DNA of 64,000 bases. It comes from an uncultured Flavobacteriales bacterium. GTDB lineage: Bacteria; Bacteroidota; Bacteroidia; Flavobacteriales_D; Parvicellaceae. The translations under genes were made by a program, and so were the position numbers. Of the stretch, positions 1,667-62,421 are shown piece after piece. The notes beneath the pieces were generated by a model. The model was not told the DNA's origin. It was given only the letters and a program-made list of their open reading frames with translations, and did no database searches. The stretch spans positions 62,001 to 126,000 of the forward strand of contig CALSPA010000003.1 of assembly GCA_943788115.1 (NCBI GenBank), read 5' to 3'. The first letter of the stretch is position 1. Every line of letters starts with the position of its first letter.

Positions 1667-1668
1667 AC

Positions 1669-2914: not shown

Positions 2915-2916
2915 AA

Positions 2917-4425: not shown

Positions 4426-4439
4426 TAGATTAATTAAAG

Positions 4440-4471: not shown

Positions 4472-4496
4472 TGGTGAAAATAATAGTTGCTCTAAA

Positions 4497-5081: not shown

Positions 5082-5085
5082 TAAA

Positions 5086-5445
5086 ATGGCATTAGATGAC
5101 ATGAATGAAGGGTTCTTACAGGTTACTAATCATAAAGAACACCCAACAAATAAAGCCTACAAAGTTTTTTTCTTTTATTCTGAAGAAGAGTCCTCTTTTT
5201 TTGAAACACAATTAAAAACAAACGAAATAAAATATGAGTGTGGAAAAGAAGAAACCCGTAAAGGAACCGTTTATTTATTTGGAATAAGAAAAACAGATCT
5301 CACTACTGTTGGGAAACTAAATTATACAACTCTAGGGAAATTTAGAAAACCATTATTTGTAAATAATAAATTAAAATATTTAATAGTTGGACTAGGAATC
5401 TTTATATTATTGATTGTATTAATTTCATATTTAATGAATCAATAA
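5086..5445 (+). CDS. Small protein with C-terminal membrane helix, function unknown
   Basis: 119 residues; no family recognised. The first 90 residues look like a compact soluble alpha/beta domain (KVFFFYSEEESSFFETQL, then GTVYLFGIRK), reminiscent of small domains that read out charged ligands, but that is only a resemblance. One transmembrane helix follows near residues 96-116 (KYLIVGLGIFILLIVLISYL) with three residues after it, so it is probably tail-anchored with the domain in the cytoplasm. It starts 4 bp after the nitroreductase gene and precedes an outer-membrane barrel gene by 30 bp, so it may belong to the same transcript. Confidence 0.7.
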   Translation: MALDDMNEGFLQVTNHKEHPTNKAYKVFFFYSEEESSFFETQLKTNEIKYECGKEETRKGTVYLFGIRKTDLTTVGKLNYTTLGKFRKPLFVNNKLKYLIVGLGIFILLIVLISYLMNQ

Positions 5446-5475
5446 CATTTAATTTGACATTTCGTTTACTAAAAA

Positions 5476-6225
5476 ATGCTTGAACTAAAATTAAATAGCT
5501 TTTTCAAATTTGGTTTAACACCTTGTTTAATTATTTGTTTAACAACAAACATTATTGCTCAACAAGGGATTACAACAATTGGATTACAGGTGAAACCAAT
5601 TATACCCATTAGTTATTTCGGAGCTGGGCCTATTTCTGTTTCAATTGAAGATACAGCATCAATCGATGTTTCATCAAAGCTAGGTTATTGTTTTGGAATG
5701 GTAATTAGGCACGGTTTTACAAAATCATTTTCTATAGAAACCGGAATAAATTATACAGAAAGGAATTACAATTTAATAGGAAGTTCTAATTTTGAAAATT
5801 CTCAAGATAATGCTGACTTTGGGTTTGTTAGCTATGAAATACCTGTTCAAGGATTAATCTATATAAGATTAGACAAGCAATTATATATGAATGCTTCAGT
5901 TGGGCTTGGAATAAACTTTTACGCATCTGATGTTGCAAGTAAAGGAGAGAACTTTTTCATTGATCATTACTCTGAAAGGGCGAGATGGGTGAACTTTTCG
6001 TTCCACTCAAATCTAGGCTTAGAATACAGAACTAAAGAAAAAGGTTATTTCTATTTAGGAGCTTCATTGAACACCCCATTTAATGAGATTACAGCAACTC
6101 GACTGAAATATTATTACGAGAATAATAATAGCGTGAATTTTGATCCTATTTTTCTAAATGGCAATTACTTAACCTTAGATTTAAGATACTTTTTACCCGC
6201 TAATGAGAAAAAGAAAAAAGATTAA
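5476..6225 (+). CDS. Outer-membrane beta-barrel protein (PorT-like)
   Basis: 249 residues with an N-terminal signal peptide ending near residue 28 (TNIIAQQG) and alternating beta-strand pattern to a terminal aromatic-rich strand ([11 protein letters not shown]). Internal strands such as [26 protein letters not shown] resemble the Bacteroidota outer-membrane beta-barrel family that includes PorT-like proteins. No specific function can be assigned. The stop codon overlaps the infB stop on the other strand: the four bases TTAA at 6222-6225 supply TAA to both genes. Confidence 0.78.
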
Positions 6226-8831
6226 AGCTTTTTAGCTACCTCAACTTCTTCAAACGCCTCTACAACATCTCCAACTTTGATATCGTTATACTTATCAATG
6301 TTCAATCCACATTCATAATTTTTCGCAACTTCCTTAACATCGTCTTTGAATCTTTTAAGAGACCCTAAAGCGCCTGTATAAACAACTATTCCATCACGAA
6401 TAATTCGAACATTATTATTTCTGTTTATTTTCCCTTCTGTAACATAACAACCAGCAATAGTCCCCACTTTAGTTATTTTAAAAGTTTCTCTTATTTCTGC
6501 AGTACCAACTATTTCTTCTTTGAAATCTGGGGAAAGCATACCTTCCATGGCTTCTTTAATCTCATCAATAGCCTTATAAATAACAGAATAAAGTCTAATG
6601 TCAATTTCTTCTTTTTCTGCAATCTTTCTTGCTCCGGCAGAAGGTCTTACTTGAAATCCAATTACAATTGCATCAGATGCTGATGCTAAAAGAATATCTG
6701 ACTCTGTTATTTGACCAACTCCTTTGTGTATAACATTTATTTGAATAGACTCATGAGATAGTTTTAACAATGAATCTGAAAGCGCTTCAATTGAACCATC
6801 AACATCACCCTTAACAATGATGTTAAGCTCTTGAAAATCACCAAGGGCAATTCTACGACCAATCTCATCAAGTGTAATGTGTTTAGTTGTTCTTAAGCCT
6901 TGTTCTCTTTGAAGTTGTTGTCGTTTAGAGGCGATTTGCTTAATCTCTCTTTCATCTTTCATTACATTAAATGAATCTCCCGCACTTGCAGCTCCATTCA
7001 TTCCCAAAACTGAAACTGGTTTTGAGGGACCAGCTTCATTGACTTCACGACCATATTCATCATGAAGGGCTTTAATTTTACCAAACTCTTTACCTGCTAA
7101 AAGAGAGTCTCCTACTCTTAAATTTCCATATTGAACAAGTAATGTTGTAACATAACCTCTTCCTTTATCCAAAGAAGCTTCAATCACTGTTCCAACAGCT
7201 TTAACTTTTGGATCTGCTTTTAGCTCTAATAATTCTGCCTCAAGCAAAACTTTTTCTAATAGCTCTTCAATACCATCACCAGATTTTGCAGAAATTTCTT
7301 GACATTGATATTTACCTCCCCAATCTTCAACTAAAATATTCATTGCCGACAATTCTTCTTTAAGTTTGTCTGGATTAGCACTTGGCCTATCACATTTATT
7401 TAATGCAAAAACCATAGGGACACCAGCTGCTTGAGCGTGATTAATTGCTTCTTTTGTCTGAGGCATCACACGATCATCTGCTGCAATAATAATGATTGCG
7501 ACATCTGTCACCTGAGCTCCACGAGCACGCATAGCTGTAAAAGCTTCGTGACCAGGTGTATCTAAAAATGTAATTTGTTTATCATCATGCGAAACAGAAT
7601 AAGCACCAATATGCTGAGTAATTCCACCTGCTTCACCTGCTGTAACCTCTGCTTTTCTTATGTAATCTAATAAAGATGTCTTTCCATGATCAACATGTCC
7701 CATAACAGTAACGATTGGAGGTCTAGCAATCATTTCTTCAGGGTTTTGCTCATCTTCGATAACAGAATCGGTAAGATCTGAACTAACAAACTCAACCTCA
7801 AAACCATATTCCTCAGCAACCATAGTCAAAGTTTCAGCATCAAGACGTTGATTTATAGATGCAAAAATCCCAATTGACATAAGTGTTCCGATAACATCAT
7901 TTGGTGATTTATCCATCATGTTACCTAACTCTGAAACGGTAACAAATTCTGTAAGCTTTAATGTGTTTTTATCTTGTTCTGCTTTAATGTTTTCTTCTTC
8001 AATTCTTTCAGAAACAGCTTGTCTTTTATCTCTTCTGTTCTTTGAACCCTTAGACTTCCCTTTATTACTAAGTCTAGCTAGTGTGTCTCTAATTTCTTTT
8101 TGAATTTCATCTTCAGAAACTTCTGCCTTTTGGTGCTTTTTTGAAGTTCTATGCTCTTGAATAGCTTTCTTACCTGCCTTTTCAACATTTACTTTCTTAA
8201 TCCTTTTACGCTTTCGCTTATTTGGATCATCCGCATCTGACTTCTTAGCTGGAGTCTTTACTTTTTCCTTAGGTAATTCTATTTTACCTAAAACTGTTGG
8301 TCCTGTTAATTTCTTAGCTTCAGCTTTAATTGTAACAACTTCATTCTTATCGGAAACAGGGGGTGTGACTTTTTTATCAAGCTTTTCTGCAGGAGCTTCT
8401 GTTTTCTTTTCTACGGGTTTTTCAACTTCCTGAACAGGTTCTTCTTTCACCTCTTCTTTTTTAATCTTTTTCACAGGATTAATATCAATTTTACCTAAAA
8501 CTGATGGTCCTGTTAATTTCTCTGCCGAAGCTTTAATCACCTTTGGTGGTTCAACAACTTCTGGCTTTTTCTCTTCCTTCGCCTCCTCTTGTTCTCTTTT
8601 AATAGAGATGACTTTCATTTCATCACGCTCCATCTGAATCTCATTGGCTTTTTCTTTCTCAAACTTTTCACTTTGAAATTCTTTAAGAAGAATCAAATAT
8701 AGATCCTCACCAATTTTAGTGTTAGGATTAGAACCAATATCTTCACCAATAGAATTAAGGTGATCAACTATTGTTGAAATACCAACATTTAACTCTTTCG
8801 CAACCTTGCTTAGTCTTTTTACTCCAGCCAT
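6222..8831 (-). CDS. infB: Translation initiation factor IF-2
   Basis: GTPase that recruits initiator tRNA to the 30S subunit and promotes subunit joining. 869 residues. An IF2 N-terminal winged-helix-like domain (residues 1-50) is followed by a Lys/Glu-rich linker. The linker holds two copies of the KLTGP(S/T)VLGKI motif near 105-115 and 174-184, a feature of Bacteroidota IF-2. A second IF2_N domain lies near 290-350. The G domain has GHVDHGKT at 378-385, DTPGH at 424-428 and NKCD at 478-481, followed by the usual beta-barrel and C-terminal domains. It is the last gene of the rimP-nusA-infB operon, 37 bp after nusA, and its stop overlaps that of the convergent barrel gene. Confidence 0.98.
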
Positions 8832-8868
8832 TATTAATTTTTAAATGAAAAAATGAAAAAATTCATTT

Positions 8869-10101
8869 TTACTCAAATTCCGATTTTAATATTTTTAATA
8901 CCTCATCAATAGTTTCAGTTTCCAAATCTGTTCTTTTCACTAAATCAGTTTTAGAGATTTCAAGAACACTTCTCGCTGAATCACATCCGATAGATTTTAG
9001 CTGATCTAAAATCCAACCATCAATTTCATCAACAAATTCATCTAAATCTACATCATCAATATCTTCAGAACCTTCTCTATAGACATCAATTTCATATTCA
9101 GTAAGCTTAGAAGCTAATTTGATGTTATGCCCTCCTTTACCAATAGCAAGTGAAACTTGATCTGGCTTTAAAAACACTTCAACCCTAGAATCGTCTTTAA
9201 TTACCATGTTGGTAATTTTTGCAGGACTAAGAGCTCTTTGTATAAGTAATTGAGAATTAGCTGTCCAGTTAATAACATCAATATTCTCATTTCTTAATTC
9301 TCTAACAATACCATGAATTCTTGAGCCTTTCATTCCTACACAAGCTCCAACAGGATCGATTCTATCATCATAAGATTCTACGGCTACTTTTGCTCTTTCA
9401 CCTGGTTCTCTAACTATTTTTTTAATGGTAATCAAACCATCAAATACTTCTGGAACTTCTAATTCAAATAATCTTTCTAAAAACTCAGGAGCTGTTCTAG
9501 AAAGAACAATAATTGGATTATTGTTTCTTAAATCAACTTTAGAAACAACAGCTCTAATAGTATCCCCTTTCCTGAAATAATCAGAAGGGATTTGTTCAGA
9601 CTTAGGCATGATTAACTCATTTCCATCATCATCTAAAATTAAAATCTCTCTTTTCCATATTTGGTAAACCTCACCAGTAATAATATCTCCAACTCTTTCT
9701 TTGTATTTGTTGTAAACATTGTCTTTCTCAAGTTCCATTAATCTAGCTTGAAGGTTTTGTTTTAAAGAAAGAATATTTCTTCTTCCAAAATCTTTCACTT
9801 TTATTTCTTGAGAAACCTCTTCACCAACCTCAAAATCTGGTTCTATTTTTAATGCTTCAGAAAGTGCAATCTGAATGGCTTCATCTTCAACCTCATTATC
9901 TGGAACAATTTCTCTATTTAGCCATATTTCCAAATCTCCTTTATCAGGGTTAACTATGACATCAACATTTTCATCAGTCCCATATTTTCTCTTTAAAGTA
10001 GAACGAAAAACGTCTTCAACAATTCTCATCATTGTACCTCTGTCAATATTTTTCATTTCCTTAAATTCAGAAAACGATTCTATTAAATCTACTGCATTCA
10101 T
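8869..10101 (-). CDS. nusA: Transcription termination/antitermination factor NusA
   Basis: RNA polymerase-associated factor affecting pausing, termination and antitermination. 410 residues, a normal length for the phylum. It shows the N-terminal NusA domain (residues 1-130, with VEDVFRSTLKRKYG), an S1 domain (about 135-200, GDIITGEVYQIWKRE), two KH domains (about 230-345, with DPVGACVGMKGSRIHGIVREL and VSLAIGKGGHNIKLA), and a short helix-hairpin-helix-like C-terminal region. It lacks the long acidic repeats of the proteobacterial protein. It sits 9 bp after rimP and 37 bp before infB. Confidence 0.98.
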   Translation of the reverse strand: MNAVDLIESFSEFKEMKNIDRGTMMRIVEDVFRSTLKRKYGTDENVDVIVNPDKGDLEIWLNREIVPDNEVEDEAIQIALSEALKIEPDFEVGEEVSQEIKVKDFGRRNILSLKQNLQARLMELEKDNVYNKYKERVGDIITGEVYQIWKREILILDDDGNELIMPKSEQIPSDYFRKGDTIRAVVSKVDLRNNNPIIVLSRTAPEFLERLFELEVPEVFDGLITIKKIVREPGERAKVAVESYDDRIDPVGACVGMKGSRIHGIVRELRNENIDVINWTANSQLLIQRALSPAKITNMVIKDDSRVEVFLKPDQVSLAIGKGGHNIKLASKLTEYEIDVYREGSEDIDDVDLDEFVDEIDGWILDQLKSIGCDSARSVLEISKTDLVKRTDLETETIDEVLKILKSEFE

Positions 10102-10110
10102 ATTAAATTA

Positions 10111-10587
10111 TTATTTAAATGTAATTACTACTTTTGTTTCTTTTATATCTTCAAATTCAATTTCACTTGTTTTGGAAACCAATACTTGTTTTTTTCTTCC
10201 TTCAATACGCTCTTTTTCTTCCCATTCTAAAACAATTGTCTTTTCAGAAACACTCTTCAATACTCCTTCTTGACTTCCGTGAGAATTAAGGACAACCTTA
10301 ACCGATCTTCCTATATTTTTTTCATATTGTTGTTTCACCTTAAAAGGCTGATCTAAACCTGGAGAACTCACTTTTAATTCAAAGTCAGTTTCCTCTCTAT
10401 CTAAATTGTGTTCAATGTTTCTACTTACAGAAATACAATCATTAACAGACACGCTATTTTTAATTCCATCAATTTCAACTACAATTGAATTTTTTGGACT
10501 AATTAAAACATCAACTAAATAACAACCATTATCAAGCTCATCTATTCGCTCCTGTGCTAATTCTATTACTTTCTTTTTACTTATCAT
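10111..10587 (-). CDS. rimP: Ribosome maturation factor RimP
   Basis: Needed for late maturation of the 30S subunit. The ATG at 10587 gives 158 residues; a GTG two codons upstream (10593) is also in frame but less likely. The family pattern is visible: N-terminal alpha/beta domain with VEIDG, the SVNDCISVSRNIEHNLD helix and VSSPGLDQPF, then a C-terminal SH3-like barrel. It is the first gene of the rimP-nusA-infB operon. A 10-bp stem-loop ends 9 nt upstream of the ATG, so expression may be controlled by leader structure. Confidence 0.95.
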   Translation of the reverse strand: MISKKKVIELAQERIDELDNGCYLVDVLISPKNSIVVEIDGIKNSVSVNDCISVSRNIEHNLDREETDFELKVSSPGLDQPFKVKQQYEKNIGRSVKVVLNSHGSQEGVLKSVSEKTIVLEWEEKERIEGRKKQVLVSKTSEIEFEDIKETKVVITFK

Positions 10588-10596
10588 TGACACAAA

Positions 10597-10620
10597 AAGA
10601 GGGGACTTTCGTCCCCTCTT
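10597..10620 (-). promoter_or_regulatory. Terminator-like hairpin in the rimP leader
   Basis: A perfect 10-bp inverted repeat, AAGAGGGGAC at 10597-10606 and GTCCCCTCTT at 10611-10620, with a 4-base loop. In the minus-strand RNA the loop is GAAA, a GNRA tetraloop closed by C-G, and the stem runs into a short U tract (CUCUUUUUG) that ends next to the rimP start. On the plus strand it is also followed by a T-rich run. No gene lies upstream in either direction that would need a terminator here, so an attenuator or a translation-blocking leader structure of the rimP-nusA-infB operon is the best reading. A weak -7-like TATATTCG lies at 10654-10647 (minus) with no good -33 element. Confidence 0.6.
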
Positions 10621-10726
10621 ATTTTTTCTTTCTATTTAAATCATTGCGAATATACATAATTTTAACAAACCCTCGTGCCTAAGCGTAAATAAATTATGTT
10701 TCTATTTTATTTATTTAGGAAAAAAC

Positions 10727-11827
10727 ATGACGGATATAATACAACAAATTGCTCTTTTAAAGGTCAAAGGCTTAGGTCCTTATAACTGCAGAAAACTAAT
10801 TTCGGATTTTAATGGTCCTCAACAGCTATTTGAGGGAAAACTAAGATTATTTAGTGCTAAATATGAAAAGAGGGGCTTAGAAATATATAGAAAAATTCAA
10901 TTGGCTAAAAAAGAACTGATAAATGCTGAAAAAATCTTTTTTGAGTGTGAGTTAAACAACATTAAAATTTGTTCTTACTATGATAAGAGCTATCCAAAGC
11001 AATTAAAAGAATGCCATGATGCTCCACAATTAATTTTTTATTCTGGGAAAAACACATTTAATAGTTCTCCATTAATTTCAATTGTTGGAACACGAGATTG
11101 CTCCGATTATGGACTTAGATTAGTAAAAGAAATATGTGCCAACTTAAAAAATTTCAATGTAACTATTGTTAGTGGTCTAGCAAAAGGTATAGATTATTCG
11201 GCCCATTACAATGCAATAAAAAATAATTTAATTACATATGCTATTTTAGGTCATGGGCACAAACACATATACCCAAAGTGTCATTCAGACATGTTCAACT
11301 TAATTAAAGAAAATGGCAAATTAATTAGTGAATTTGAACCCAGCACAATTCCGACAAAATTTAATTTCCCAAAAAGAAATAGAATTATTGCAGGAATAGC
11401 AGACGCAACTTTAGTTGTAGAATCGAAAGAAAGAGGAGGCAGTTTAATTACTGCAAGAATTGCGAACTCTTACAACAAAGATGTTTTTGCAATTCCAGGA
11501 AAGGTCGATTCAGCAAACTCTAAAGGGTGTAACAAATTAATAAGTAATAATGAAGCCCTCTTAATTAATTCATCATCTGAAATAATTAAGCTGATGGAAC
11601 TTAAAAAGAAAGCAGTGACTAACCAAGTTGTTACAATTCCAGAAGGCCTTAATAAAACTGAAGAAAAAGTAATGCATAAAATAATAAGCTATCCGAATTA
11701 CAATACTGATGAAATATCGACTTTATTGTCTATGAATAGCCACGAATTACAAAGTCAACTAACTACATTGGAACTTAAAGGCGCAATAAAACTTCTTTTT
11801 GGAAAAAAAATTAAGATCTTAAATTAG
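10727..11827 (+). CDS. dprA: DNA-processing protein DprA
   Basis: Binds incoming single-stranded DNA and loads RecA during natural transformation. 366 residues. An N-terminal helix-hairpin-helix/SAM-like region (residues 1-80) is followed by the Rossmann-like DprA domain with SIVGTRDCSDYG, VSGLAKGIDYSAHY, the FPKRNRIIAGIADATLVVES block, the GSLITARIA stretch and FAIPGKVDSANSKGCN. A C-terminal winged-helix DML1-like domain lies at about 305-365. It is divergent from rimP and followed after 34 bp by an FtsX-type permease gene. Confidence 0.97.
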   Translation: MTDIIQQIALLKVKGLGPYNCRKLISDFNGPQQLFEGKLRLFSAKYEKRGLEIYRKIQLAKKELINAEKIFFECELNNIKICSYYDKSYPKQLKECHDAPQLIFYSGKNTFNSSPLISIVGTRDCSDYGLRLVKEICANLKNFNVTIVSGLAKGIDYSAHYNAIKNNLITYAILGHGHKHIYPKCHSDMFNLIKENGKLISEFEPSTIPTKFNFPKRNRIIAGIADATLVVESKERGGSLITARIANSYNKDVFAIPGKVDSANSKGCNKLISNNEALLINSSSEIIKLMELKKKAVTNQVVTIPEGLNKTEEKVMHKIISYPNYNTDEISTLLSMNSHELQSQLTTLELKGAIKLLFGKKIKILN

Positions 11828-11861
11828 ATTTCAAATTACAATACCTACTTTAGAAGTCATT

Positions 11862-13085
11862 GTGAACTTTCCAAACTTTATAGCCAAACGATATCTTTTC
11901 TCTAAGAAGTCTAAAAGTATTATAAACATAATCTCTTTGATTTCTATTATCGGGGTTTTTGTAAGCTCTACAGCTATGATTATCGTGCTAAGCGGGTTTA
12001 ATGGGATTGAAAAACTTGTCGAAAATATTTACAGCAAACACGAGGCAGATATTGTAATTTCTCCTAAAATCGGAAAAACATTCTATGAAACTGATAGCAT
12101 TATTAATGCTCTTAACTCTTATTCTGAAATAAAAAACTATTCTAAAATTATTGAAGAAGTAACCATGATTAAACATGGGGAAAAGTGGACCACCGCAATT
12201 ATGAAAGGTGTTGAAAAGCCTTATGTAAAAATTTCCAAACTAGAATCATCTATTATTGAAGGCAATTGTAACCTGTGGAAAAACAGCTCTCATAATTCAA
12301 TTATAGGAGTAGGTTTACAAAATCAAATTCAAGTTTCTTCTGATAGCAGGTTCAATAATGAAGTAATTATTTACGGGCTATTAAGAGAAGAAAAAATATC
12401 TAGAACAAATAAAAGTGTCTTTAAACCTGCAAAAATTAATGTGACTGGTATTTTTAATATCACCCCTGAATTTGATGAAAAGTACATAATTGTTCCAATT
12501 AATTTTGCTCGAAACCTTTTAAACTATGAAAATGAAATTAACTCAATTGAAATTGAGCTTAATTCAGGAATAGATCCACTTTCATTTAAAAACAAATTAG
12601 CAACTGTTTTAGGTGACAAGTACAACTATGAGACCCAATACGAAAAAAACGAGCTTATTTATAAAACAAATGCGGCAGAGAAATGGATGGTATTTATGAT
12701 CTTAATATTTATATTCATTCTATCTACCTTTAACATCATTGCATCTCTTACTATGCTGATATTAGACAAAAAGAAGGATATTTCTACTTTAATTTCTTTA
12801 GGTGCTACTCCGAATTTAATAAAATCAATATTTTTTAGAGAAGGATTTTATATTAACATTCTGGGAGGTGGTTTAGGCTTGACTATAGGAGCATTACTTT
12901 GTTTAGTTCAAGCTAAGTTCAAAATAATTAAACTAGAAAACTCTGTAATTGATCACTGGCCTGTGGTTGTAGAGTTATGGGACCTTTTAGCTATTCTATT
13001 TATTTTAATTTTTATTGGAGTTATATCATCTTATTTACCAACTGCATTTATCATTAAAAGACACTTTAAATCTTATTTCAATTAA
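11862..13085 (+). CDS. FtsX/LolC-family ABC transporter permease
   Basis: 407 residues, four transmembrane helices in the MacB/FtsX arrangement: one N-terminal (about 22-44, IINIISLISIIGVFVSSTAMIIVLSGF), a long periplasmic domain (about 50-265), and three C-terminal helices (about 272-300, 320-345, 370-395). This matches Bacteroidota proteins annotated as LolC/LolE-like lipoprotein-releasing permeases; the ATPase partner is not adjacent. The start is GTG, supported because the family begins with FPxFIAKRYLF. The stop lies 1 bp from the stop of the convergent hemolysin-type gene. Confidence 0.85.
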   Translation: MNFPNFIAKRYLFSKKSKSIINIISLISIIGVFVSSTAMIIVLSGFNGIEKLVENIYSKHEADIVISPKIGKTFYETDSIINALNSYSEIKNYSKIIEEVTMIKHGEKWTTAIMKGVEKPYVKISKLESSIIEGNCNLWKNSSHNSIIGVGLQNQIQVSSDSRFNNEVIIYGLLREEKISRTNKSVFKPAKINVTGIFNITPEFDEKYIIVPINFARNLLNYENEINSIEIELNSGIDPLSFKNKLATVLGDKYNYETQYEKNELIYKTNAAEKWMVFMILIFIFILSTFNIIASLTMLILDKKKDISTLISLGATPNLIKSIFFREGFYINILGGGLGLTIGALLCLVQAKFKIIKLENSVIDHWPVVVELWDLLAILFILIFIGVISSYLPTAFIIKRHFKSYFN

Positions 13086-13086
13086 A

Positions 13087-14391
13087 TTACTTGATAATAG
13101 AATTTACAACAAGGAAAGTAACCCATTCAATTCTAGTTTCTGAAACTTCTTTTATTAAAATTTTATACTTTCCAATAGAAATTAAATCTCCTTTTTTTGG
13201 AATTGTTTCCTTGTAATGAATTATTAACCCCCCAATGGTTTCATACTCTTCTTTTTCTGGAATTTCTAATCTGTACTTTTCATTGATGAAATCTATTTCA
13301 GTTCTTCCAGAAAATTCAAATTCGAACTCAGAAATTTGACGATGATCTTCATCTTTCTGATCGTGTTCATCATCAATTTCTCCAAAGATTTCTTCAATTA
13401 CATCCTCCATAGTTACCATTCCTGAGGTGCCTCCAAATTCATCAACTACAATTGCAATGCTTCTATTTTTTTTAATAAATTCTTCCAAAATTTTATTGGC
13501 AGTAATACTCTCAGGAATTATGCTAATTGGAAGAAGGATGGATTTAATATGATCAGGTTTTTTAAAGAGCTCTAGACAATGAACAAAGCCGATAATATTA
13601 TCAATATTGTCTCTATAAATTAATATTTTAGACAACCCTGTTTCGATAAATTTATTCTTTAATTCTGATATGTTTTCCTCTATTTCAAATGCAACGATTT
13701 CATTTCTAGGAATCATACAATCACGTGCAATAACTTCTGAAAATCCTAGAGCATTATGGAAAATTTTAACTTCATTTTCAAGCTCTTTCACATCAACAAT
13801 TTCTTTCGTTAACTCATCCAAATAATTATCTAAATCTATTTTTTCAAATGCAACTTTATCGTTTTTATCTAATTTATCCTTAATAAAAAAGAACATCAAT
13901 CCCTCTGCAATTCCAATGACTATAATTGTAGGCAACCATAGAATGCTGTAGATTAATATTAACGGAACTGCCAAAAAACTAAGAGTTCCGTTTGGATTCA
14001 TTCTGAACAATGCTTTTGGAAGAAATTCTGCAAAAATTAAAATGAATATTGTAGAAATTAAGGTTTGAACGAAAAGTACTAATGCTGCTGAATCCATCCA
14101 ACTTATCTTTACAAATAAATCTTCAATAAATGGTTTGAGAATAAACCCCATAAACCATGAATAAACTACCATCGAGATGTTATTACCCAATAACATTGAT
14201 CCAATAAACCATTCTGGTTTTTTAGCAAAGTAAGCTAATAGTTTAGCTTTATAACCTCCTGTTTTATTATCTAGCTCAATTTTTAATCGATTTGCTGAAA
14301 TAAAAGCAATTTCCATACCAGAGAAAAAAGCAGAAAAAATTAGCGCAATTATAATAATTAATGAAATAGGTAAAAGCATTTCAACATCCAT
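13087..14391 (-). CDS. CNNM/CorC-type hemolysin family protein with CBS domains
   Basis: Integral membrane protein of the DUF21-CBS-CorC family, members of which are linked to Mg/Co homeostasis; the ion here is unknown. From the ATG at 14391 it has 434 residues; a TTG three codons earlier is possible. It has an N-terminal CNNM/DUF21 domain with about four membrane segments (SAFFSGMEIAFISANRLKI opening), a CBS pair at about 200-330 (ending VVDEFGGTSGMVTMEDVIEEIFGEI), and a C-terminal transporter-associated domain (about 350-430). It is related to GldE, but it sits in a coaX-lptC cluster rather than next to gldD, so I do not name it gldE. Confidence 0.9.
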   Translation of the reverse strand: MDVEMLLPISLIIIIALIFSAFFSGMEIAFISANRLKIELDNKTGGYKAKLLAYFAKKPEWFIGSMLLGNNISMVVYSWFMGFILKPFIEDLFVKISWMDSAALVLFVQTLISTIFILIFAEFLPKALFRMNPNGTLSFLAVPLILIYSILWLPTIIVIGIAEGLMFFFIKDKLDKNDKVAFEKIDLDNYLDELTKEIVDVKELENEVKIFHNALGFSEVIARDCMIPRNEIVAFEIEENISELKNKFIETGLSKILIYRDNIDNIIGFVHCLELFKKPDHIKSILLPISIIPESITANKILEEFIKKNRSIAIVVDEFGGTSGMVTMEDVIEEIFGEIDDEHDQKDEDHRQISEFEFEFSGRTEIDFINEKYRLEIPEKEEYETIGGLIIHYKETIPKKGDLISIGKYKILIKEVSETRIEWVTFLVVNSIIK

Positions 14392-14417
14392 GTGAAACAA
14401 AGATAAAATCTATTTAA

Positions 14418-14642
14418 TTAGTTAGCGGATTGATCTAATTTTATTCTAAGACCCCTTTTTATCAAGAAAACCCCCCATGCTAATCCAGATAATAGAAAAT
14501 ATGACAATACTCCTTCCCATTTGTCAACAAAGCCAATTACTAAAGAAGATGCTGTTGCTAAAATTGCCACGTAAAACCATACCTTTTCCATGAACTTTTG
14601 CCATTTTCTTATGTTATTAATCGATGATTTTTGATTCTTCAT
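14418..14642 (-). CDS. Small two-helix membrane protein, unknown function
   Basis: 74 residues with two predicted membrane helices (about 22-40, VWFYVAILATASSLVIGF, and about 45-63, GVLSYFLLSGLAWGVFLI) and a basic C-terminal tail. From the first ATG it overlaps the lptC end by 26 bp. A start at the internal ATG (14594) would remove the overlap and keep both helices. It lies between lptC and the CorC-type gene in a minus-strand operon. No family recognised. Confidence 0.65.
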   Translation of the reverse strand: MKNQKSSINNIRKWQKFMEKVWFYVAILATASSLVIGFVDKWEGVLSYFLLSGLAWGVFLIKRGLRIKLDQSAN

Positions 14643-15180
14643 AATTAATATGACTGTTTTTAATATTTAATAATCGATAAAAAGTAAAATTACTATTTGC
14701 CACTAATTCATTGCCTAAAATTACACCATTTTGTGATGAAACTTTAACTGGCCTATTTGTATAAATACTATCCTTTTGAAAATAGATATTTAGTAAGTCT
14801 GTAAATAAAGTGTCTCTATTTTTATTGTAAAAGACTACGTTTTCTTTTACAACCATGAATTGATCTTTTGTATAAAGTTTACCATAATCAGCAATAAGAA
14901 CGGATTCAATATTTTCTAAAGAATCGTAAAAAGTAAGCTCCATTCCCGTTGGACACTCTAAAGTCATTTCTTTTTCATCATCAAACCTGTGAACTTCGGG
15001 ACTAATTAAACGCATTTTAGAATTCCCCATATCTGAATAGTACATAGTAACACCATTTGTTACTTCGACTGGAGATGAGTAATCTGACGACAAGTTTTTA
15101 ATCTGTTCTACAGATGAAGAACAACCATAGGCTAAAAAACTAATAATAAAAAGTGTGGAAATTCTTAAATAGGAAAGCAT
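14617..15180 (-). CDS. lptC: LPS export periplasmic protein LptC
   Basis: Inner-membrane-anchored component of the Lpt bridge that passes LPS from the LptBFG transporter towards LptA/LptD. 187 residues. The first 20 residues form a lipoprotein-type signal (FIISFLAYGC), unlike the plain membrane helix of the proteobacterial LptC but usual in Bacteroidota. The rest is beta-rich with the family's repeated strands (GVTMYYSDMGNSKMRLISPEV, VFYNKNRDTLFTDLL). It sits 2 bp after the tetratricopeptide-like gene in the cluster starting with coaX. lptB is elsewhere, at 33589. Confidence 0.85.
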   Translation of the reverse strand: MLSYLRISTLFIISFLAYGCSSSVEQIKNLSSDYSSPVEVTNGVTMYYSDMGNSKMRLISPEVHRFDDEKEMTLECPTGMELTFYDSLENIESVLIADYGKLYTKDQFMVVKENVVFYNKNRDTLFTDLLNIYFQKDSIYTNRPVKVSSQNGVILGNELVANSNFTFYRLLNIKNSHINYEESKIID

Positions 15181-15182
15181 TA

Positions 15183-16478
15183 CTAATCTCTTGTTCGAAG
15201 CTTAACAGTGGCATTCCAACATTCAACTTTCTGGTCTGAACCGTTAACAACATCGAGCATAATTAAATCTTTTTTCGGAAGTAAAGATCCAGTCCAAGAA
15301 TTTACTGTGGCAGAACCTATTTTACCACAAGACTTTTCAGCATAATTTAATGCTAAACAGTAAACAAGACTTCTCTCTAATGCAGATGTTCCGCATGAAT
15401 TTGCGCTAGCGGCAATAGCTCTTGCTTTCTTTTCATTTGCCACACAATTATCAGAAATTGAATTGGTAATTTTATATGCTTCTTTATAACTTTTTCTTTT
15501 CAAAGCAATATCATAAAGCATTGTGTAGCACTTTTGTTTGTTTGCATCATCATTCGAAATTGTTAATGCTCTTTGAAAACGATCTTTAGATTTTGTGTAA
15601 TCTCCTCTTTTGTAATCAGCTAAAGCAGCGTTAATTAAATCTTTATCATTAGGAGGGTTATTTGGATCGTTAAGAACTTTATCTAATAAACTCAAATAAA
15701 AATCTGAATCTGTACATTTTTTAGCGCTCAACATACCAAAAACTTTTCTTGTTAATGACATATCTTCAGGAGATGCAGCTACTTTCTTAGCATAAATTTC
15801 TTCTAGTTTATCACAAGATGCACATGGAGCAATACTTTGATCAAGGAAACCAAGCACAGCTGTAAACTTTTCAGCTTTTAAACCTGCTTTAATGTTGTTG
15901 TCACATAAATCAGACATTTGTTCAAAATCAGTTAAAAACGCATCGCAGTCTATTTTCTTATTATTAAACATGTAAATGGCTGAATAAAAGAATAACTTAA
16001 CATTACTGTAAGACAATGAAGCTGGGTTTGAGGCATACACTTCATGAAATAGAGCATACGATTGTTCATATTTCAAACTAGGTATTAATTTCATTATATC
16101 TCCAGCCGATTTCAATTTTATCTCATCACAATTCCCATAATTTTCAATCCATAAATCATAAATAGTAAAAAGTGAATCTACATAAACACTTAAATTAGGA
16201 TCTTTTGCTTTTGCTCTCTCAGAAGCTATTTTTCTATATATGTATGTACCGTTCTTGTACAAGTTGGTCTTATACTGTGGGCAATAAGCTTGAGCTTTCC
16301 ACCAAGATTTTGAAGCATCATTCCAATTTTTTTGCTTTAAGAACTCAGTATACAGAGAAACATTTGTTCTGCAACTTACACTATCACTTCCCCAATTAGG
16401 CTGTTTTTGAACTGCACAATCTTGAGCAGAAATGAAACTTGAAACTAAAAGGGATATTATTAAAATTATTTTACTCAT
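15183..16478 (-). CDS. Secreted tetratricopeptide-like repeat protein
   Basis: 431 residues from the ATG at 16478, which places a clean signal peptide (MSKIILIISLLVSSFISAQ) at the N-terminus. An in-frame ATG at 16526 would give an odd 16-residue extension overlapping the upstream gene. The mature part is helical, with tetratricopeptide-like segments, clearest near residues 290-370 (ALADYKRGDYTKSKDRFQRAL, then KRKSYKEAYKITNSI). It is rich in cysteine, including CASCDKLEEIYAKK and a C-terminal RSLVYCLALNYAEKSCG. Probably periplasmic. It lies 4 bp after an outer-membrane protein gene and 2 bp before lptC, so a role in envelope assembly is plausible. Confidence 0.82.
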   Translation of the reverse strand: MSKIILIISLLVSSFISAQDCAVQKQPNWGSDSVSCRTNVSLYTEFLKQKNWNDASKSWWKAQAYCPQYKTNLYKNGTYIYRKIASERAKAKDPNLSVYVDSLFTIYDLWIENYGNCDEIKLKSAGDIMKLIPSLKYEQSYALFHEVYASNPASLSYSNVKLFFYSAIYMFNNKKIDCDAFLTDFEQMSDLCDNNIKAGLKAEKFTAVLGFLDQSIAPCASCDKLEEIYAKKVAASPEDMSLTRKVFGMLSAKKCTDSDFYLSLLDKVLNDPNNPPNDKDLINAALADYKRGDYTKSKDRFQRALTISNDDANKQKCYTMLYDIALKRKSYKEAYKITNSISDNCVANEKKARAIAASANSCGTSALERSLVYCLALNYAEKSCGKIGSATVNSWTGSLLPKKDLIMLDVVNGSDQKVECWNATVKLRTRD

Positions 16479-16482
16479 CTTA

Positions 16483-17847
16483 TTAATCATATTTTCTTTT
16501 CTTAAACCATCTATCATACCTAGCATCTGGAGCTAAACTAAAACCTATAGAACATTTCAAATAATTATCTTCAATTAATCCATTATCTATTGTCCCTAGT
16601 TTACCAAATTCAAATCCTAAATTGATTCTAGATAATGATCTTGAACTTATTAATGGCATTGAAATTCCAAAATTCATGCCATAGTTAGTTAGTTGTTGAT
16701 CATTAATTACAATAAATGAATTCCCATAATTAAAACCTAGACTGTAAGTAGACTTCTGAAATGAGTTTTTATTTTTACTTGAGAAATCTAATGAGGGAGT
16801 AATTCTTGCACCAATCGAAAGCTGAGTCATTTGGGCCAAAGACTGGTAATCATTCACAACAACATCAAAATTTTCTTGATATAAATCCCAATTATAAATT
16901 GAATACTGAACACCTAAAGACCAAACATTTTTATCTTGCTTGTTTCTACCAATATTAGCTCCAATAGAAAACTTATCTGGGAAGGAAACTGTTCCATCTT
17001 CATCTTGGAAATAATCTAAGGTGTCTTTAGGAATTTCTTGAACAGAGAAATTGTAAGTAAATGAATAAGCATAGTAATCTCTTTTAGCATTAACAGAAGA
17101 TCCAAAAGTTTGGGCCGCTCCAAATTGCCAAAACCATTTGTCGTTTTCGGCTTTTCCTTTAATTTCTTGGAAATAATGTAATCCTGCATCAAAAGAAAAT
17201 CCACTTAAAGTCATTCTATTTTGAATTCTTGAGTTATAGAAAGAGCTTTCTTGAAAAATTACACTATTGTTTCTATCAATTGTTCCAAATAAATAAGAAC
17301 TATTAAATCCTAAAGAAAATCGAGTAGTGTCACCTCTATTCACAAAATCATGCCCAACACCTAATAGAATGCGATTAACGCTTCCATCTCCAGCATAGTT
17401 ATAGTTTAGAGTGTCTGTTCCTAAAAGCTCTGTAGAAGTTATATTATAACCAATAGTAGAGAAAGGCATAATACCTAAAGTAATTCCTGTTTTTTTTGAA
17501 ATAGGTAACCCAATTAACATGTTGTTTAAAGCAGAATTTGAACCACTGCTTGAATTCACATTTCCATCAACCTCAGATCTATAGGAAGAAATTTTAGCAG
17601 AAATTCCTAAGTCAAATAGAGGGTTGTTTTTCTTATATGCTGAGTATGTAGCCGGATTCGAAACATTTATGAATGAAAAGTCAGAAAAAGAAACACCGAT
17701 ACCTCCCATACTAGAATAATGGGCGGTAGACAAAGGAGTTAGTTCTCCTAGACCAAATCTTGTATAAGGTGATGTGTTTAAGTCTTGTCCAAACAGAACT
17801 AAACCTAATGTTAAAACAGACAATAATGTTCCCAGCTTACGATACAT
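16483..17847 (-). CDS. Outer-membrane beta-barrel protein of the coaX-lptC cluster
   Basis: 454 residues; signal peptide (LSVLTLGLVLFGQ) then the start LNTSPYTRFGLGELTPLST and SSMGGIGVSF, a pattern of Bacteroidota outer-membrane proteins distantly like FadL/PorV barrels. Alternating strands continue to the C-terminal strand (LKCSIGFSLAPD...). The substrate is unknown; there is no T9SS sorting domain. Its start overlaps the coaX end by 11 bp, and the TPR-like gene follows after 4 bp. Confidence 0.75.
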   Translation of the reverse strand: MYRKLGTLLSVLTLGLVLFGQDLNTSPYTRFGLGELTPLSTAHYSSMGGIGVSFSDFSFINVSNPATYSAYKKNNPLFDLGISAKISSYRSEVDGNVNSSSGSNSALNNMLIGLPISKKTGITLGIMPFSTIGYNITSTELLGTDTLNYNYAGDGSVNRILLGVGHDFVNRGDTTRFSLGFNSSYLFGTIDRNNSVIFQESSFYNSRIQNRMTLSGFSFDAGLHYFQEIKGKAENDKWFWQFGAAQTFGSSVNAKRDYYAYSFTYNFSVQEIPKDTLDYFQDEDGTVSFPDKFSIGANIGRNKQDKNVWSLGVQYSIYNWDLYQENFDVVVNDYQSLAQMTQLSIGARITPSLDFSSKNKNSFQKSTYSLGFNYGNSFIVINDQQLTNYGMNFGISMPLISSRSLSRINLGFEFGKLGTIDNGLIEDNYLKCSIGFSLAPDARYDRWFKKRKYD

Positions 17848-18556
17848 TCTCTTTTAAAATTCTATTTAAACCTAATAAGGTTATATAATCGTGTGCAAAT
17901 ATGCTACTTTTTTGGCGATCTACCATTGGATAAATGAATTCGGAGTCACCACCAGTCAAAAACACCTGTAATTCCGGATAATTATTTTTATAATTATTAA
18001 TCATTTCTTTAATTTCAGATGATAACCCGTTTACTATTCCCGAAAAAATAGATGATAAAGTTGAGTCTCCAACTAGTTTAGAAGAATTAAACTCTTCAAC
18101 TAACGGCAATTTGTCTGTAAAAGTATGTAATGCTTTTGCTCTCATTTTTAAACCAGGTGAAATTGAGCCCCCTAAATAGTTGTTTTCTGAATTTATCAGA
18201 TCAAATTTCAAACAAGTACCCGCATCAATAATTAAATTATTTCTATTAGGCGATATTGTAAAAGCTCCAATAGCATTTGCTAATCGATCATAACCGAGAG
18301 TATCTGGTGTGGTATAATTATTTTTAACAGGAATCTTTAAACCATTATTAAATAATACAATTGCTTTGTTTCTATTTAAAATCGAATGAACTTTATCATA
18401 AGTTTTAACTGAACATATAATTCCTTGACTGAAATCGCAGTTAACTATAAAGTTTTCAAGCTCATTAATTAAAACAGTATTTTTCTTTACTAAATCACCA
18501 TCTTTAAAAAAACCAATTTTAGCAGCTGTATTTCCAATGTCAACAACAATATTCAT
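17837..18556 (-). CDS. coaX: Type III pantothenate kinase
   Basis: Phosphorylates pantothenate in the first step of coenzyme A synthesis; cytoplasmic ASKHA-fold kinase not inhibited by CoA. 239 residues. Motifs: the phosphate loop VVDIGNTAAKIGFF at residues 4-17, PDTLGYDRLANAIGA, the DAGTCLKFDLI phosphate motif and GGSISPGLKMRAKALHTFTDKLP. It is the first gene of a six-gene minus-strand run. A -7 type box ends 5 nt before its ATG. Confidence 0.96.
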   Translation of the reverse strand: MNIVVDIGNTAAKIGFFKDGDLVKKNTVLINELENFIVNCDFSQGIICSVKTYDKVHSILNRNKAIVLFNNGLKIPVKNNYTTPDTLGYDRLANAIGAFTISPNRNNLIIDAGTCLKFDLINSENNYLGGSISPGLKMRAKALHTFTDKLPLVEEFNSSKLVGDSTLSSIFSGIVNGLSSEIKEMINNYKNNYPELQVFLTGGDSEFIYPMVDRQKSSIFAHDYITLLGLNRILKENVS

Positions 18557-18560
18557 TAAG

Positions 18561-18568
18561 CAAATATA
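18561..18568 (-). promoter_or_regulatory. Candidate -7 box of coaX, possible leaderless start
   Basis: Minus-strand TATATTTG, a perfect match to TAnnTTTG. The G at 18561 is 5 nt from the A of the coaX ATG at 18556, so transcription would begin at or one base before the start codon. The -33 position falls in the T tract of the hppA terminator and is not a good TTG. Confidence 0.4.
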
Positions 18569-18609: not shown

Positions 18610-18635
18610 AAGAAAACATTAATTGTTGAAAATAT

Positions 18636-21050
18636 TTAAATAGAAGCTTTTACAGAATCAACACTTACTTGTCCTTCAATAGTTTCTGAAGAATTTGTAA
18701 TTGTATCTCCATTTTCAACTACAATAGTATTAATTGTGCTATTTGAAGAGCTATCAGTTTCATTGACATCAATTGTCATGATAACTTCTTTGCCATCATC
18801 TATTTTTGAATCAGCTGTGACACTAACTTCTGTTTGTGTTTCAGAATCATTATGAGCATGACCATCTCCACCCAAAATAGGAGCAATTACTAAACCAATT
18901 AGACAAGTTAATTTAATTAAAATGTTCATCGATGGACCTGAAGTATCTTTAAATGGATCACCTACTGTATCCCCAGTTACTGCAGCTTTATGAGCTTCAG
19001 AACCTTTATAAGTCATTTCACCATCAACCATAACCCCAGCTTCAAATGATTTCTTAGCGTTATCCCATGCACCACCAGCATTGTTTTGAAAGATAGCCCA
19101 AAGAACTCCACTTACGGTAACTCCAGCCATATAACCACCCAACATTTCAGCAACCATTAGATTATTCATTCCAAATGCTAGAGGAACAAAAGCAATAACT
19201 AATGGGAAACCTATAGTTAACAACCCTGGCAACATCATTTGCTTTAATGAAGCTTTCGTAGAAATATCAACACATTTATCGTATTCTGGTTTTCCAGTAC
19301 CTTCCATAATTCCAGAAATATCTCTAAACTGACGTCTAACTTCTTGTACCATTTCCATTGCAGCCTTTCCAACAGCATTCATAGCTAAAGCAGAAAATAC
19401 AACCGGCACCATTCCACCAACAAATAACATTGCCAATACTGGAGCTTTAAAGATATTAATACCTTCAATCCCTGTAAATGTAACATATGCTGCAAATAAA
19501 GCTAAAGAGGTTAATGCAGCAGATGCAATAGCAAATCCTTTTCCAGTTGCAGCAGTAGTATTACCAACTGAATCTAGTATATCAGTTCGTTCTCTAACAA
19601 TTGGATCTTGCTCACTCATCTCAGCAATACCACCTGCGTTATCTGCAATTGGTCCGAATGCGTCAATTGCCAACTGCATAGCTGTTGTAGCCATCATAGC
19701 AGAGGCAGCCATTGCAACTCCATAGAATCCTGCTAATGCATATGATCCCCAGATTGCACCAGCAAATAAAAGAACTGTTGGGAAAGTAGAAATCATTCCC
19801 GTAGCTAAACCAGCAATAATGTTAGTTCCAGCTCCAGTAGATGATTGTTGAACAATTTTTAAAATAGGTTTTTTACCTAACCCTGTGTAGTATTCAGTTA
19901 CAGATGAAATAACAGCACCAACTATCAATCCAATGATAGTAGCGCCAAATACACGTAAAGAAGAAATATTTTTAATTAAATCTGTTCCATCAGGACCTTC
20001 TCCAAAAAATTCCATTTTCATTGTTGGTGGCAACATCCAATTAACTAACACATAACAAGAGACCGCAACTAATGCAATAGAAACCCAGTTTCCAACATTT
20101 AATGCTCCCATTACTTGCTTTTCTTTTGCGTCATTCGATTTAATTTTCACTAACATTGATCCAATCATTGAAATGATAATTCCAACACCTGCAATTGCCA
20201 TTGGCAATAAGATGGGACCCATTCCACTAAATGAATCAACAATAGCACCATTATCTCTAATGACATAGTTTCCAAGCACCATAGCAGCTAGTACAGTTGC
20301 AACATAAGAGCCAAATAAATCTGCTCCCATTCCTGCAACATCACCAACATTATCCCCAACATTATCTGCAATAGTAGCAGGATTACGTGGGTCATCTTCT
20401 GGAATACCAGCTTCAACTTTACCAACTAAATCGGCTCCAACATCAGCTGCTTTAGTGTAGATTCCTCCACCAACTCTTGCAAACAACGCAATTGATTCAG
20501 CGCCTAAAGAGAAGCCTGCCAATGTTTCTAATACTACAGTCATTTTATCTGTAGAGAATGCATCTCCACTATTCATGAACATGTTGTAAAAAAGAATAAA
20601 AAATGCAGTTAATCCTAAAACAGCAAGTCCAGCAACACCTAATCCCATAACTGTACCACCACCGAAAGAAACCTTCAATGCATTTGGTAAGCTAGTTTTT
20701 GCTGCTTGTGTAGTTCTTACATTTGTTTTAGTAGCTATTTTCATTCCCATATTTCCAGCAAATGCAGAAAATAGAGCTCCGAAAACAAACGATACTACAA
20801 TCATCCAATGGGTAGATGGCACAAAGTAAGATACTATAGCTAGAGCAATACTAACTACTAGAACAAATATTGCTAAAAGACGATACTCTGCGTTCAAGAA
20901 AGCTAAAGCTCCTTCATAGATATGGTCTGAAATTTCTTTCATCTTTCCATCTCCTGCATCTTGTTTCATTACCCAAGACTTCTTAACCAACATATATAAC
21001 AGTCCAACAAGGGCTGCAGCAATTGGCATATAAATAATCATTGATTCCAT
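18636..21050 (-). CDS. hppA: Membrane ion-pumping pyrophosphatase, K+-dependent type
   Basis: Couples hydrolysis of pyrophosphate to H+ or Na+ transport across the inner membrane. 804 residues, about 16 helices. The substrate loop GGGIYTKAADVGADLVGKVE begins at residue 194 and is followed by DNVGDNVGDVAGMGADL. The GNTTAATGKG motif at 496-505 has Ala500 and Gly503, the K+-dependent signature (K+-independent forms have Lys and Thr). Which ion is pumped cannot be read safely. Unusual: after the last helix (IKLTCLIGLVIAPILG) there is a tail of about 78 residues, rich in Ser, Thr, Asp and Asn and starting GGDGHAHND, where homologues end within a few residues. It has its own promoter and terminator. 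Confidence 0.96.
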   Translation of the reverse strand: MESMIIYMPIAAALVGLLYMLVKKSWVMKQDAGDGKMKEISDHIYEGALAFLNAEYRLLAIFVLVVSIALAIVSYFVPSTHWMIVVSFVFGALFSAFAGNMGMKIATKTNVRTTQAAKTSLPNALKVSFGGGTVMGLGVAGLAVLGLTAFFILFYNMFMNSGDAFSTDKMTVVLETLAGFSLGAESIALFARVGGGIYTKAADVGADLVGKVEAGIPEDDPRNPATIADNVGDNVGDVAGMGADLFGSYVATVLAAMVLGNYVIRDNGAIVDSFSGMGPILLPMAIAGVGIIISMIGSMLVKIKSNDAKEKQVMGALNVGNWVSIALVAVSCYVLVNWMLPPTMKMEFFGEGPDGTDLIKNISSLRVFGATIIGLIVGAVISSVTEYYTGLGKKPILKIVQQSSTGAGTNIIAGLATGMISTFPTVLLFAGAIWGSYALAGFYGVAMAASAMMATTAMQLAIDAFGPIADNAGGIAEMSEQDPIVRERTDILDSVGNTTAATGKGFAIASAALTSLALFAAYVTFTGIEGINIFKAPVLAMLFVGGMVPVVFSALAMNAVGKAAMEMVQEVRRQFRDISGIMEGTGKPEYDKCVDISTKASLKQMMLPGLLTIGFPLVIAFVPLAFGMNNLMVAEMLGGYMAGVTVSGVLWAIFQNNAGGAWDNAKKSFEAGVMVDGEMTYKGSEAHKAAVTGDTVGDPFKDTSGPSMNILIKLTCLIGLVIAPILGGDGHAHNDSETQTEVSVTADSKIDDGKEVIMTIDVNETDSSSNSTINTIVVENGDTITNSSETIEGQVSVDSVKASI

Positions 21051-61331: not shown

Positions 61332-61370
61332 TTCAGTTGGTTTGTAAACCAATAAGTATAACTGAATTTT
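61332..61370 (+). terminator. Hairpin terminator between the MATE gene and rlmN
   Basis: Outer stem TTCAGTT (61332-61338) and AACTGAA (61360-61366) around an inner GGTT-TGTA-AACC hairpin (61339-61350), followed on the plus strand by TTTT and a T-rich run. It lies in the only convergent gap of more than 2 bp in the window. Confidence 0.55.
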
Positions 61371-62421
61371 ATTTCTCTGCTAATTTGTTCTTGTTTGCTA
61401 ATTGTCCGCAAGCAGCATCAATGTCTTTCCCTCTACTTCTTCTTATATTAACAATAATATTTCTTTTTTCTAAATAGCTTGCAAATGCATCAACTTTTTC
61501 AGGGTCTGCCTGCTGGTATATACCATCATCTATTGAGTTATATTCGATGATATTTACTTTACAGGGCACAGTATTACAGAAATCTGCTAGTTCCATAGCG
61601 TCTGAAATATCATCATTAAAATCTTTAAAAATGATGTATTCAAATGTCAGGCGAGTATTAGTTTTTAAATAAAAATAAACAATAGCTTCCTTTAAAACTT
61701 CAAGATTATTGCTTTCGTTTATGGGCATTATTTTGTTTCTCTTTTCGTCATTGGCTGCATGTAAAGAAAGTGCGAGATTAAAACGAACGTTATCGTCTCC
61801 AAGTTTTTTAATCATCTTTGCAATTCCTGCCGTGCTTACAGTAATTCTTTTAGGAGACATTCCAAGTCCTTTTTCTGATGTAATCTTATCGATTGAATCA
61901 ATAACATTTTGATAGTTTAAAAGTGGCTCCCCCATTCCCATGAAAACAATGTTAGACAGAGGAATATCATATTTCTCTTTAGCCTGATTATTAATCATAA
62001 CCACTTGGTCAAAGATTTCATCTTGATTCAAATTTCTAACCCTCTTCAATGTTCCCGTTGCACAAAAAGCGCAAGATAAACTACAACCAACTTGAACGGA
62101 AACACAAGCCGTCATTCTTTTGCTTGTTGGAATTAATACACCCTCAATGATTGCATTATCCGATAATGCAAAAGCATTTTTAATAGTGCGGTCATTACTG
62201 AACTGAGCTTCAGACAATTTAATTGCATTTATAGCATATTTTTCACTCAACTTATCTCTTAGCTTTTCAGAAAGATTAGTCATCTGATCAAAATTGACTG
62301 CTCTTTTTTTCCAAAGCCATTCATAAATTTGTTTGGCACGAAACGGTTTTTCTCCTAATTCACTAAGTTCATTAGTGAGTTGTTCAATTGATAATTGCCT
62401 TATGTCTATTTTCTTTTGCAT
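61369..62421 (-). CDS. rlmN: 23S rRNA A2503 / tRNA A37 methyltransferase RlmN
   Basis: Radical SAM enzyme making C2-methyladenosine in 23S rRNA and tRNA. From the ATG at 62421 it has 350 residues. The radical SAM cluster is CSLSCAFC (Cys113, Cys117, Cys120), and the catalytic cysteine lies near residue 343 in DIDAACGQL. The GMGEPLLNY and ITVSTAG blocks are present. A queA terminator hairpin ends only 8 nt before the ATG, leaving no separate promoter room, so expression probably comes from read-through. Confidence 0.97.
   Translation of the reverse strand: MQKKIDIRQLSIEQLTNELSELGEKPFRAKQIYEWLWKKRAVNFDQMTNLSEKLRDKLSEKYAINAIKLSEAQFSNDRTIKNAFALSDNAIIEGVLIPTSKRMTACVSVQVGCSLSCAFCATGTLKRVRNLNQDEIFDQVVMINNQAKEKYDIPLSNIVFMGMGEPLLNYQNVIDSIDKITSEKGLGMSPKRITVSTAGIAKMIKKLGDDNVRFNLALSLHAANDEKRNKIMPINESNNLEVLKEAIVYFYLKTNTRLTFEYIIFKDFNDDISDAMELADFCNTVPCKVNIIEYNSIDDGIYQQADPEKVDAFASYLEKRNIIVNIRRSRGKDIDAACGQLANKNKLAEK

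Follow-up and report, generated by a model that had tools for sequence, protein, structure and literature searches.

A terminator-like hairpin conserved before rimP-nusA-infB in Bacteroidota, a likely attenuator of the operon

The question raised by this locus is what a terminator-like hairpin is doing immediately in front of rimP, the first gene of the rimP-nusA-infB operon, on a strand where no gene is found just upstream. Feedback attenuation by NusA, whose gene sits in the operon downstream of the hairpin, had been proposed in an earlier note on this DNA. The window, i.e. the whole stretch of 64,000 nucleotides that was analysed from an uncultured Flavobacteriales bacterium, contains the following features.

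6222..8831, minus strand: infB (IF-2), TIGR00487
8869..10101, minus strand: nusA, 410 aa, with NusA_N, S1 and KH domains (TIGR01953; PF08529, PF00575, PF13184)
10111..10587, minus strand: rimP (ribosome assembly cofactor RimP), first gene of the operon (NF002531, 163.1 bits for a cut-off of 123; PF02576)
10588..10642, minus strand: predicted 55-nt rimP leader RNA, its start site taken from the -7 box
10592..10598, minus strand: U tract UUUUUGU directly 3' of the GC core, broken distally at position 6
10597..10620, minus strand: putative attenuator hairpin, kept in relatives (5' arm 10620-10611, GAAA loop 10610-10607, 3' arm 10606-10597)
10647..10654, minus strand: predicted -7 box TATATTCG (consensus TAnnTTTG, PMC9723704)
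10727..11827, plus strand: dprA, divergent neighbour, TIGR00732

The minus-strand RNA at 10620-10597 reads AAGAGGGGAC-GAAA-GTCCCCTCTT, followed by TTTGTGTCA / UUUGU. The perfect 10-bp stem, the GAAA loop and the U run were as the earlier note had described them; the distance of 9 nt given there holds from the end of the stem to the rimP ATG (10587), but not for the U run, which ends 6 nt before the ATG. The GC core is followed immediately by UUUUU (10598-10594), and this by G and U. It is worth mentioning that ORF callers may choose a GTG at 10593, just past the U run, as the rimP start; the ATG at 10587 fits the conserved N-terminus of the relatives.

The energy of the hairpin is about -18 kcal/mol, and the 46-nt segment that carries it (-20.4 kcal/mol, z = -5.8) was equalled in stability by none of 200 shuffles. 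It ranked first among the terminator-like sites at window positions 1-20000, where 13 were found on both strands versus 9.0 expected from shuffles. Terminator-like hairpins within 150 nt upstream of a start were restricted to four of the 51 ORFs called in the window (at least 100 aa): rimP, dprA, which lies 106 nt off on the other side of the same palindrome, and two ORFs preceded by a codirectional one. Only rimP among the 51 combined a hairpin near its start with the lack of a codirectional ORF before it. Elsewhere in the window, a hairpin with a U tract at 18588-18609 (minus strand) is located between 18635..21050(-) and a pantothenate-kinase-like gene, 17837..18556(-), whose name was read from the sequence; it is probably an ordinary terminator, since the upstream ORF is codirectional. 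Likewise, the hairpin GAACCCCGTTTTTATAGCGGGGTTT and a U tract were found 7 nt upstream of ORF 61369..62421 (minus strand), which has a codirectional upstream neighbour about 50 nt away.

The anatomy of the hairpin would also fit an ordinary terminator at the 3' end of an antisense transcript or of one coming from upstream, and the same type of hairpin does occur at convergent gene ends. The exact GGGGAC...GTCCCC hairpin was found at nine sites other than rimP in 39 genomes of the window's family (0-2 per genome): eight are where convergent genes end, some of them reaching into the end of a called ORF, and one is inside an ORF. These eight locations are ordinary terminator positions, and a special repeat element was rejected on the same counts. 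A second GGGGACC...GGTCCCC hairpin in the window's own genome (G000:C18:47185-47203, L275) lies between an rplT-like ORF (L20, a name again read off the sequence) and a convergent ORF, overlapping the end of the latter, which is an ordinary terminator position as well. In front of rimP, the window has no minus-strand gene immediately upstream and the neighbour is the divergent dprA, which counts against an ordinary 3' terminator, as the earlier note had argued. Among the relatives, crude ORF calling gave a divergent upstream ORF in 67 of 147 hairpin-bearing leaders and a codirectional one in 77, and the hairpin was present in 67 of all 80 cases with a divergent upstream ORF. A 3' terminator is therefore disfavoured and must be regarded as very improbable.

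The window palindrome has a U tract on the plus strand too (scores 25.5 and 24.6). Being terminator-like on both strands, its orientation was decided by relatives and not by the window sequence. A set of 173 rimP leaders, 30 from the window family, 54 from the rest of the order, 31 from the rest of the class and 58 from the rest of the phylum, was scored for hairpin energy and U-tract quality over the region from -150 to +12, with loops of up to 14 nt. A terminator-like hairpin with a U tract was found before rimP in 158 of them (30/30 family, 54/54 order, 28/31 class, 46/58 phylum), the fractions beyond the family not being those of a random sample, as the loci there were the 60 best-scoring ones and 90 hand-picked for diversity (88 new loci). 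With the same loop limit, 153 hairpins were within 60 nt of the rimP start, and 19 of 1730 dinucleotide shuffles passed the threshold. A loop limit of 10 nt gave 151 of 173 leaders and 13 of 1730 shuffles, long-loop hairpins being missed. In several of the 15 leaders below threshold, e.g. L158, L190, L192 and L214, a hairpin and a U tract can nonetheless be seen; no convincing hairpin was seen in the leader stretch inspected for L166, L199 and L202. Five loci from the order search that duplicated family genomes (L075, L086, L092, L093, L096) were excluded from the counts, as were L001, L032-L061 and L062-L066, and where one genome had two RecA matches, the second (L274) was also left out.

Within the family, rimP was found in 35 genomes, of which 30 leaders were taken; for the remaining five, coordinates put the hairpin beside rimP. 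The exact core GGGGAC-n-GTCCCC was present in 35 of the 39 family genomes. It adjoins rimP in 34 of the 35 genomes with rimP, the 35th (G021, L030) carrying a variant in which one pair is G-U. When the window genome was compared with eight family members, hairpin and U tract were 85-100% identical, whereas the rest of the intergenic region showed 54-66% identity, and 93% in the nearest genome. The opposite strand passed in 65 of the 173 leaders (23/30 family, 24/54 order, 12/31 class, 6/58 beyond class), and its passing in the window and in the 23 family leaders speaks against an attenuator. The strand bias for the rimP side rises with distance from the window family, reaching 46 versus 6 of 58 beyond the class.

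Other leaders of the same genomes served as controls. In 30 shared genomes, a hairpin at most 60 nt from the start was found for rimP in 29/30, for groES in 0/30 and for recA in 1/29. Anywhere in the leader, passing hairpins amounted to 30/30, 12/30 and 2/29, respectively. The 12 groES hairpins lie 71-122 nt from the start and nine of them share a different conserved hairpin. The latter is a palindrome of the AATGTCAGTATG-n-CATACTGACATT type with a U tract, present in 9 of the 30 Bacteroidota genomes at 81-122 nt before groES (L221, L223, L226, L231, L237, L239, L241, L242, L244). The groES leader of a further genome, L217, has a CIRCE-like palindrome instead.

A MAFFT and alifold consensus of the wider set was shifted and meaningless, and stems were instead found in each sequence separately. 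In an alignment restricted to the order (80 distinct hairpins), five stem columns were standard pairs in 78-80 of 80, with GC, AT and GT mixed within columns; the other three of the eight columns reached no more than 61-68 of 80, owing to misalignment between stems of unequal length. Among 147 leaders (loop limit 10 nt), 52 distinct 5'-arm sequences (last 8 nt) were counted with pairing kept, examples being GAGGGGAC, AGAGGGGT, AGGGAACG, AAGTGGGG, TCGCCC and ATAGCCCG. Beyond the class, the arms were quite different (TCGCCC/GGGCGA, AAGTGGGG/CCCCACTT, ATAGCCCG/CGGGCTAT). Conservation of the stem, which the earlier note had put forward as a check, was borne out in close and distant relatives, with paired sequences that differ. 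The 5' arm was G-rich in 29/30 family, 52/54 order and 25/26 class hairpins, and C-rich, i.e. of inverted polarity, in 23 of the 43 hairpins counted beyond the class. Exact GGGC/GCCC arms were seen in 14 of 153 hairpins, that of the window not being one of them.

Loops were equally variable, with 92 distinct ones among the 147 leaders at the same loop limit. The GNRA loop that the earlier note had pointed out is present in the window as GAAA, but is not a conserved feature: GNRA loops were found in 17/30 family and 18/54 other order leaders and in 0/69 further out. A functional GNRA motif was rejected on account of this free variation. Positions 1-5 after the GC core were 90-97% T in the 147 leaders and position 6 was 58% T, a conservation that is partly circular because the search rule itself requires T there. 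In the window, the U tract has only five U before a G, which also speaks against an attenuator.

A perfect palindrome within a divergent intergenic region, with high sequence identity inside the order, could act at the DNA level as a transcription-factor operator for rimP or for the divergent dprA. Against this stands the freedom of the loop while both stem sides change, together with the persistence of the hairpin in the 77 hairpin-bearing leaders whose upstream ORF is codirectional and the growth of the strand bias with distance from the window family. Furthermore, the palindrome lies downstream of the predicted rimP promoter. In our opinion, an operator has hardly any probability.

That promoter was predicted from the -7 box, which passages of PMC9723704 give as TAnnTTTG at position -12 to -5. 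Placed accordingly, +1 would fall at about 10642, the stem would begin at +23 and the leader would measure 55 nt, with a terminated form of presumably 45-52 nt. A start upstream of the hairpin, on which the earlier note's proposal depends, agrees with this box as a prediction. The pattern TAnnTT[TC]G was scanned up to 75 nt upstream of the stem in leaders passing the hairpin threshold, and was present in 26/30 family, 54/54 other order and 28/28 other class leaders; beyond the class, it was present in only 16 of 46 passing leaders and its spacing was not tight. Shuffled segments contained it in 6-8% of cases up to the class and in 10-11% further out, with a 'class' shuffle set that included L159, L162 and L179 from other classes and a distant 'phylumclass' set that included the class members L105, L108, L111, L118 and L119.

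The geometry of these leaders bears on a further explanation, namely a translational or stability element: the hairpin would obstruct or place the ribosome, or shield the 5' end of the mRNA, and the U run would be just an A/U-rich translation start region. From stem to start codon the median was 13 nt in family and order, as compared with 17 nt in the class, so that the stem would meet an initiating ribosome. On the other hand, the U tract abuts the GC core, an arrangement partly imposed by the search rule, and promoter-to-stem spacing was tighter than stem-to-start spacing in family and order. The 10-90% ranges for box-to-stem and stem-to-start were 23-30 versus 9-25 nt in the family and 20-29 versus 9-37 nt in the other order leaders. 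In the class (15-29 versus 14-32 nt) box-to-stem was only slightly tighter, and beyond the class it was no tighter. Within the order, this difference fits a transcriptional element better than a translational one, and we regard the latter as improbable; the end of the stem 9 nt before the AUG points to a possible translational role and speaks against an attenuator.

Pairing of the leader with the 5' arm of the stem was evaluated in 101 leaders with a predicted start and no antiterminator was found: the duplex had a median of -0.2 kcal/mol and a best value of -5.5, compared with a median of -15.7 for the hairpin. A terminator/antiterminator switch within the leader is thus unsupported, as these leaders are unable to pair with the stem. 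In a leader devoid of an antiterminator, read-through should be set by a protein altering terminator efficiency.

Taken as a whole, the hairpin is likely to be an intrinsic terminator in a leader of about 55 nt, attenuating rimP-nusA-infB, most likely by NusA-stimulated negative feedback. RNA polymerase would start about 22 nt upstream of the stem. Part of the polymerases would stop in vivo at the U tract, releasing a leader RNA of about 50 nt, and the remaining ones would read through into the operon. A protein acting on the efficiency of the terminator would govern the read-through fraction, the most likely candidate being NusA, which the second gene encodes: more NusA would cause more termination and hence less operon mRNA. 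The attenuation suggested in the earlier note is supported by the conserved stem and the predicted upstream start, with control by NusA as its presumptive part. The strength of the window hairpin (-18 kcal/mol) speaks against an attenuator, as 5' terminators are described in passages of PMC2965389 as less stable than 3' ones.

All hairpin and leader anatomy would fit equally well an attenuator with another effector (RimP, IF2, NusG, a ribosomal protein or the growth state), or a constitutive partial terminator fixing the operon dose. RimP is also named as a possibility by Naville and Gautheret in passages of PMC2965389. NusA, however, has its gene within the operon and is a stimulator of intrinsic termination; in B. 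subtilis it is also the effector published for this arrangement, according to passages of the review PMC12288461. This alternative appears rather unlikely to us.

Comparison with known systems placed the hairpin among previously described elements. It would be the form taken in Bacteroidota by the 'rimP-leader' of Naville and Gautheret (2010), as that element is characterised in the main text of PMC2965389: a short intrinsic terminator in the 5' UTR of rimP-nusA-infB, described there as the most ubiquitous attenuator, located 4-130 nt from the gene start, with no antiterminator in its general form and with a GGGc(...)gCCC stem. The window hairpin likewise lies 5' of rimP-nusA-infB and has a stem and a U stretch, 9 nt from the ATG and therefore inside this range. 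It has no antiterminator (101 leaders), no larger sensor domain (no Rfam match at gathering scores), and a G-rich 5' arm with a C-rich 3' arm. Unlike GGGc/gCCC at the loop side, the window arms are GGGGAC/GTCCCC, and beyond the class the C-rich 5' arms depart from it as well. The earlier note was correct in mentioning attenuators before rimP in enterobacteria, their range being wider than that group (passages of PMC2965389).

In B. subtilis, NusA is autoregulated through NusA-stimulated intrinsic termination in its 5' leader (review PMC12288461, in part). The leader-terminator arrangement is the same as that of the window; NusA dependence was reported there, whereas here we infer it. The original work on autoregulation at the B. 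subtilis nusA leader is reportedly that of Mondal et al. in 2016, and the system is said to operate without an antiterminator. In S. agalactiae, RNA-seq of gbs0413-gbs0418 (rimP-nusA-infB) revealed short and long transcripts from one start site, with termination 31 nt after the start at an intrinsic terminator, and NusA feedback was proposed (passages of PMC4448216). This leader belongs to a different phylum, and its transcripts were seen, those of the present leader being predicted. The E. coli operon metY-nusA-infB has terminators t1 and t2 upstream of rimP, and in front of rimP it also has a tRNA gene, several promoters and RNase III sites (passages of PMC6511841). It resembles the window in its terminators before rimP and in its operon; it differs in the tRNA gene, the window having no Rfam match at gathering scores. 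NusA negative feedback on rimP-nusA-infB is in fact a model proposed or reported in other bacteria (passages of PMC4448216 and PMC12288461). A further precedent comes from Flavobacterium psychrophilum, for which passages of PMC9723704 mention a transcribed and structured 5' region ahead of rimP that is shared by other Flavobacteriaceae and has no Rfam hit. These passages give neither a sequence nor a terminator or NusA role; it is very likely the same element as the window hairpin.

Rfam gave no match at gathering scores over the whole 64-kb window, and its rimP family was absent among the 20 matches at E <= 5 on 10500-10800. The accession of the rimP leader in Rfam is presumably RF01770. The best match, sraA (38.1 bits for a gathering score of 56, E 1.2e-4 on 301 bases), was rejected as chance, since it was below gathering and, among 20 loci at E <= 0.05, recurred only in L002, the window's own leader. 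The only other match in these 20 loci was IS009 in L189, with 29.9 bits versus 117. A weak match to Bacteroides BTnc231 (13.4 bits) was set aside, the main text of its paper containing no occurrence of rimP or nusA.

A description of the rimP-leader element across Bacteroidota was not found in the open-licence papers searched, and 'bacteroid' has no occurrence in the main text of the rimP-leader paper (PMC2965389). The rimP leader attenuator of other bacteria and the structured rimP 5' element of F. psychrophilum are already known, from the passages of the papers cited above. What is new here is the breadth across the phylum, the promoter-hairpin geometry and the lineages with inverted stem polarity. 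The finding is well conserved, but would be recognisable to a specialist.

A wider reading can be put forward tentatively, with slightly less than even confidence: a near-universal NusA attenuator of Bacteroidota, in which stem sequence and G/C polarity are free, and the terminator shape is fixed, as is, within the class, the distance from promoter to hairpin. If this were true, NusA would be sensed in this phylum without a sequence signature, unlike the GGGc...gCCC recognition suggested earlier. The varied stems of Bacteroidota are natural variants with which the response of NusA to hairpin strength, U tract and sequence may be separated, and annotators would gain an early terminator to mark before rimP across the phylum. 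One simple feedback device, a terminator before the gene of a termination factor, would then operate on the same essential operon in Bacteroidota as has been reported or proposed elsewhere.
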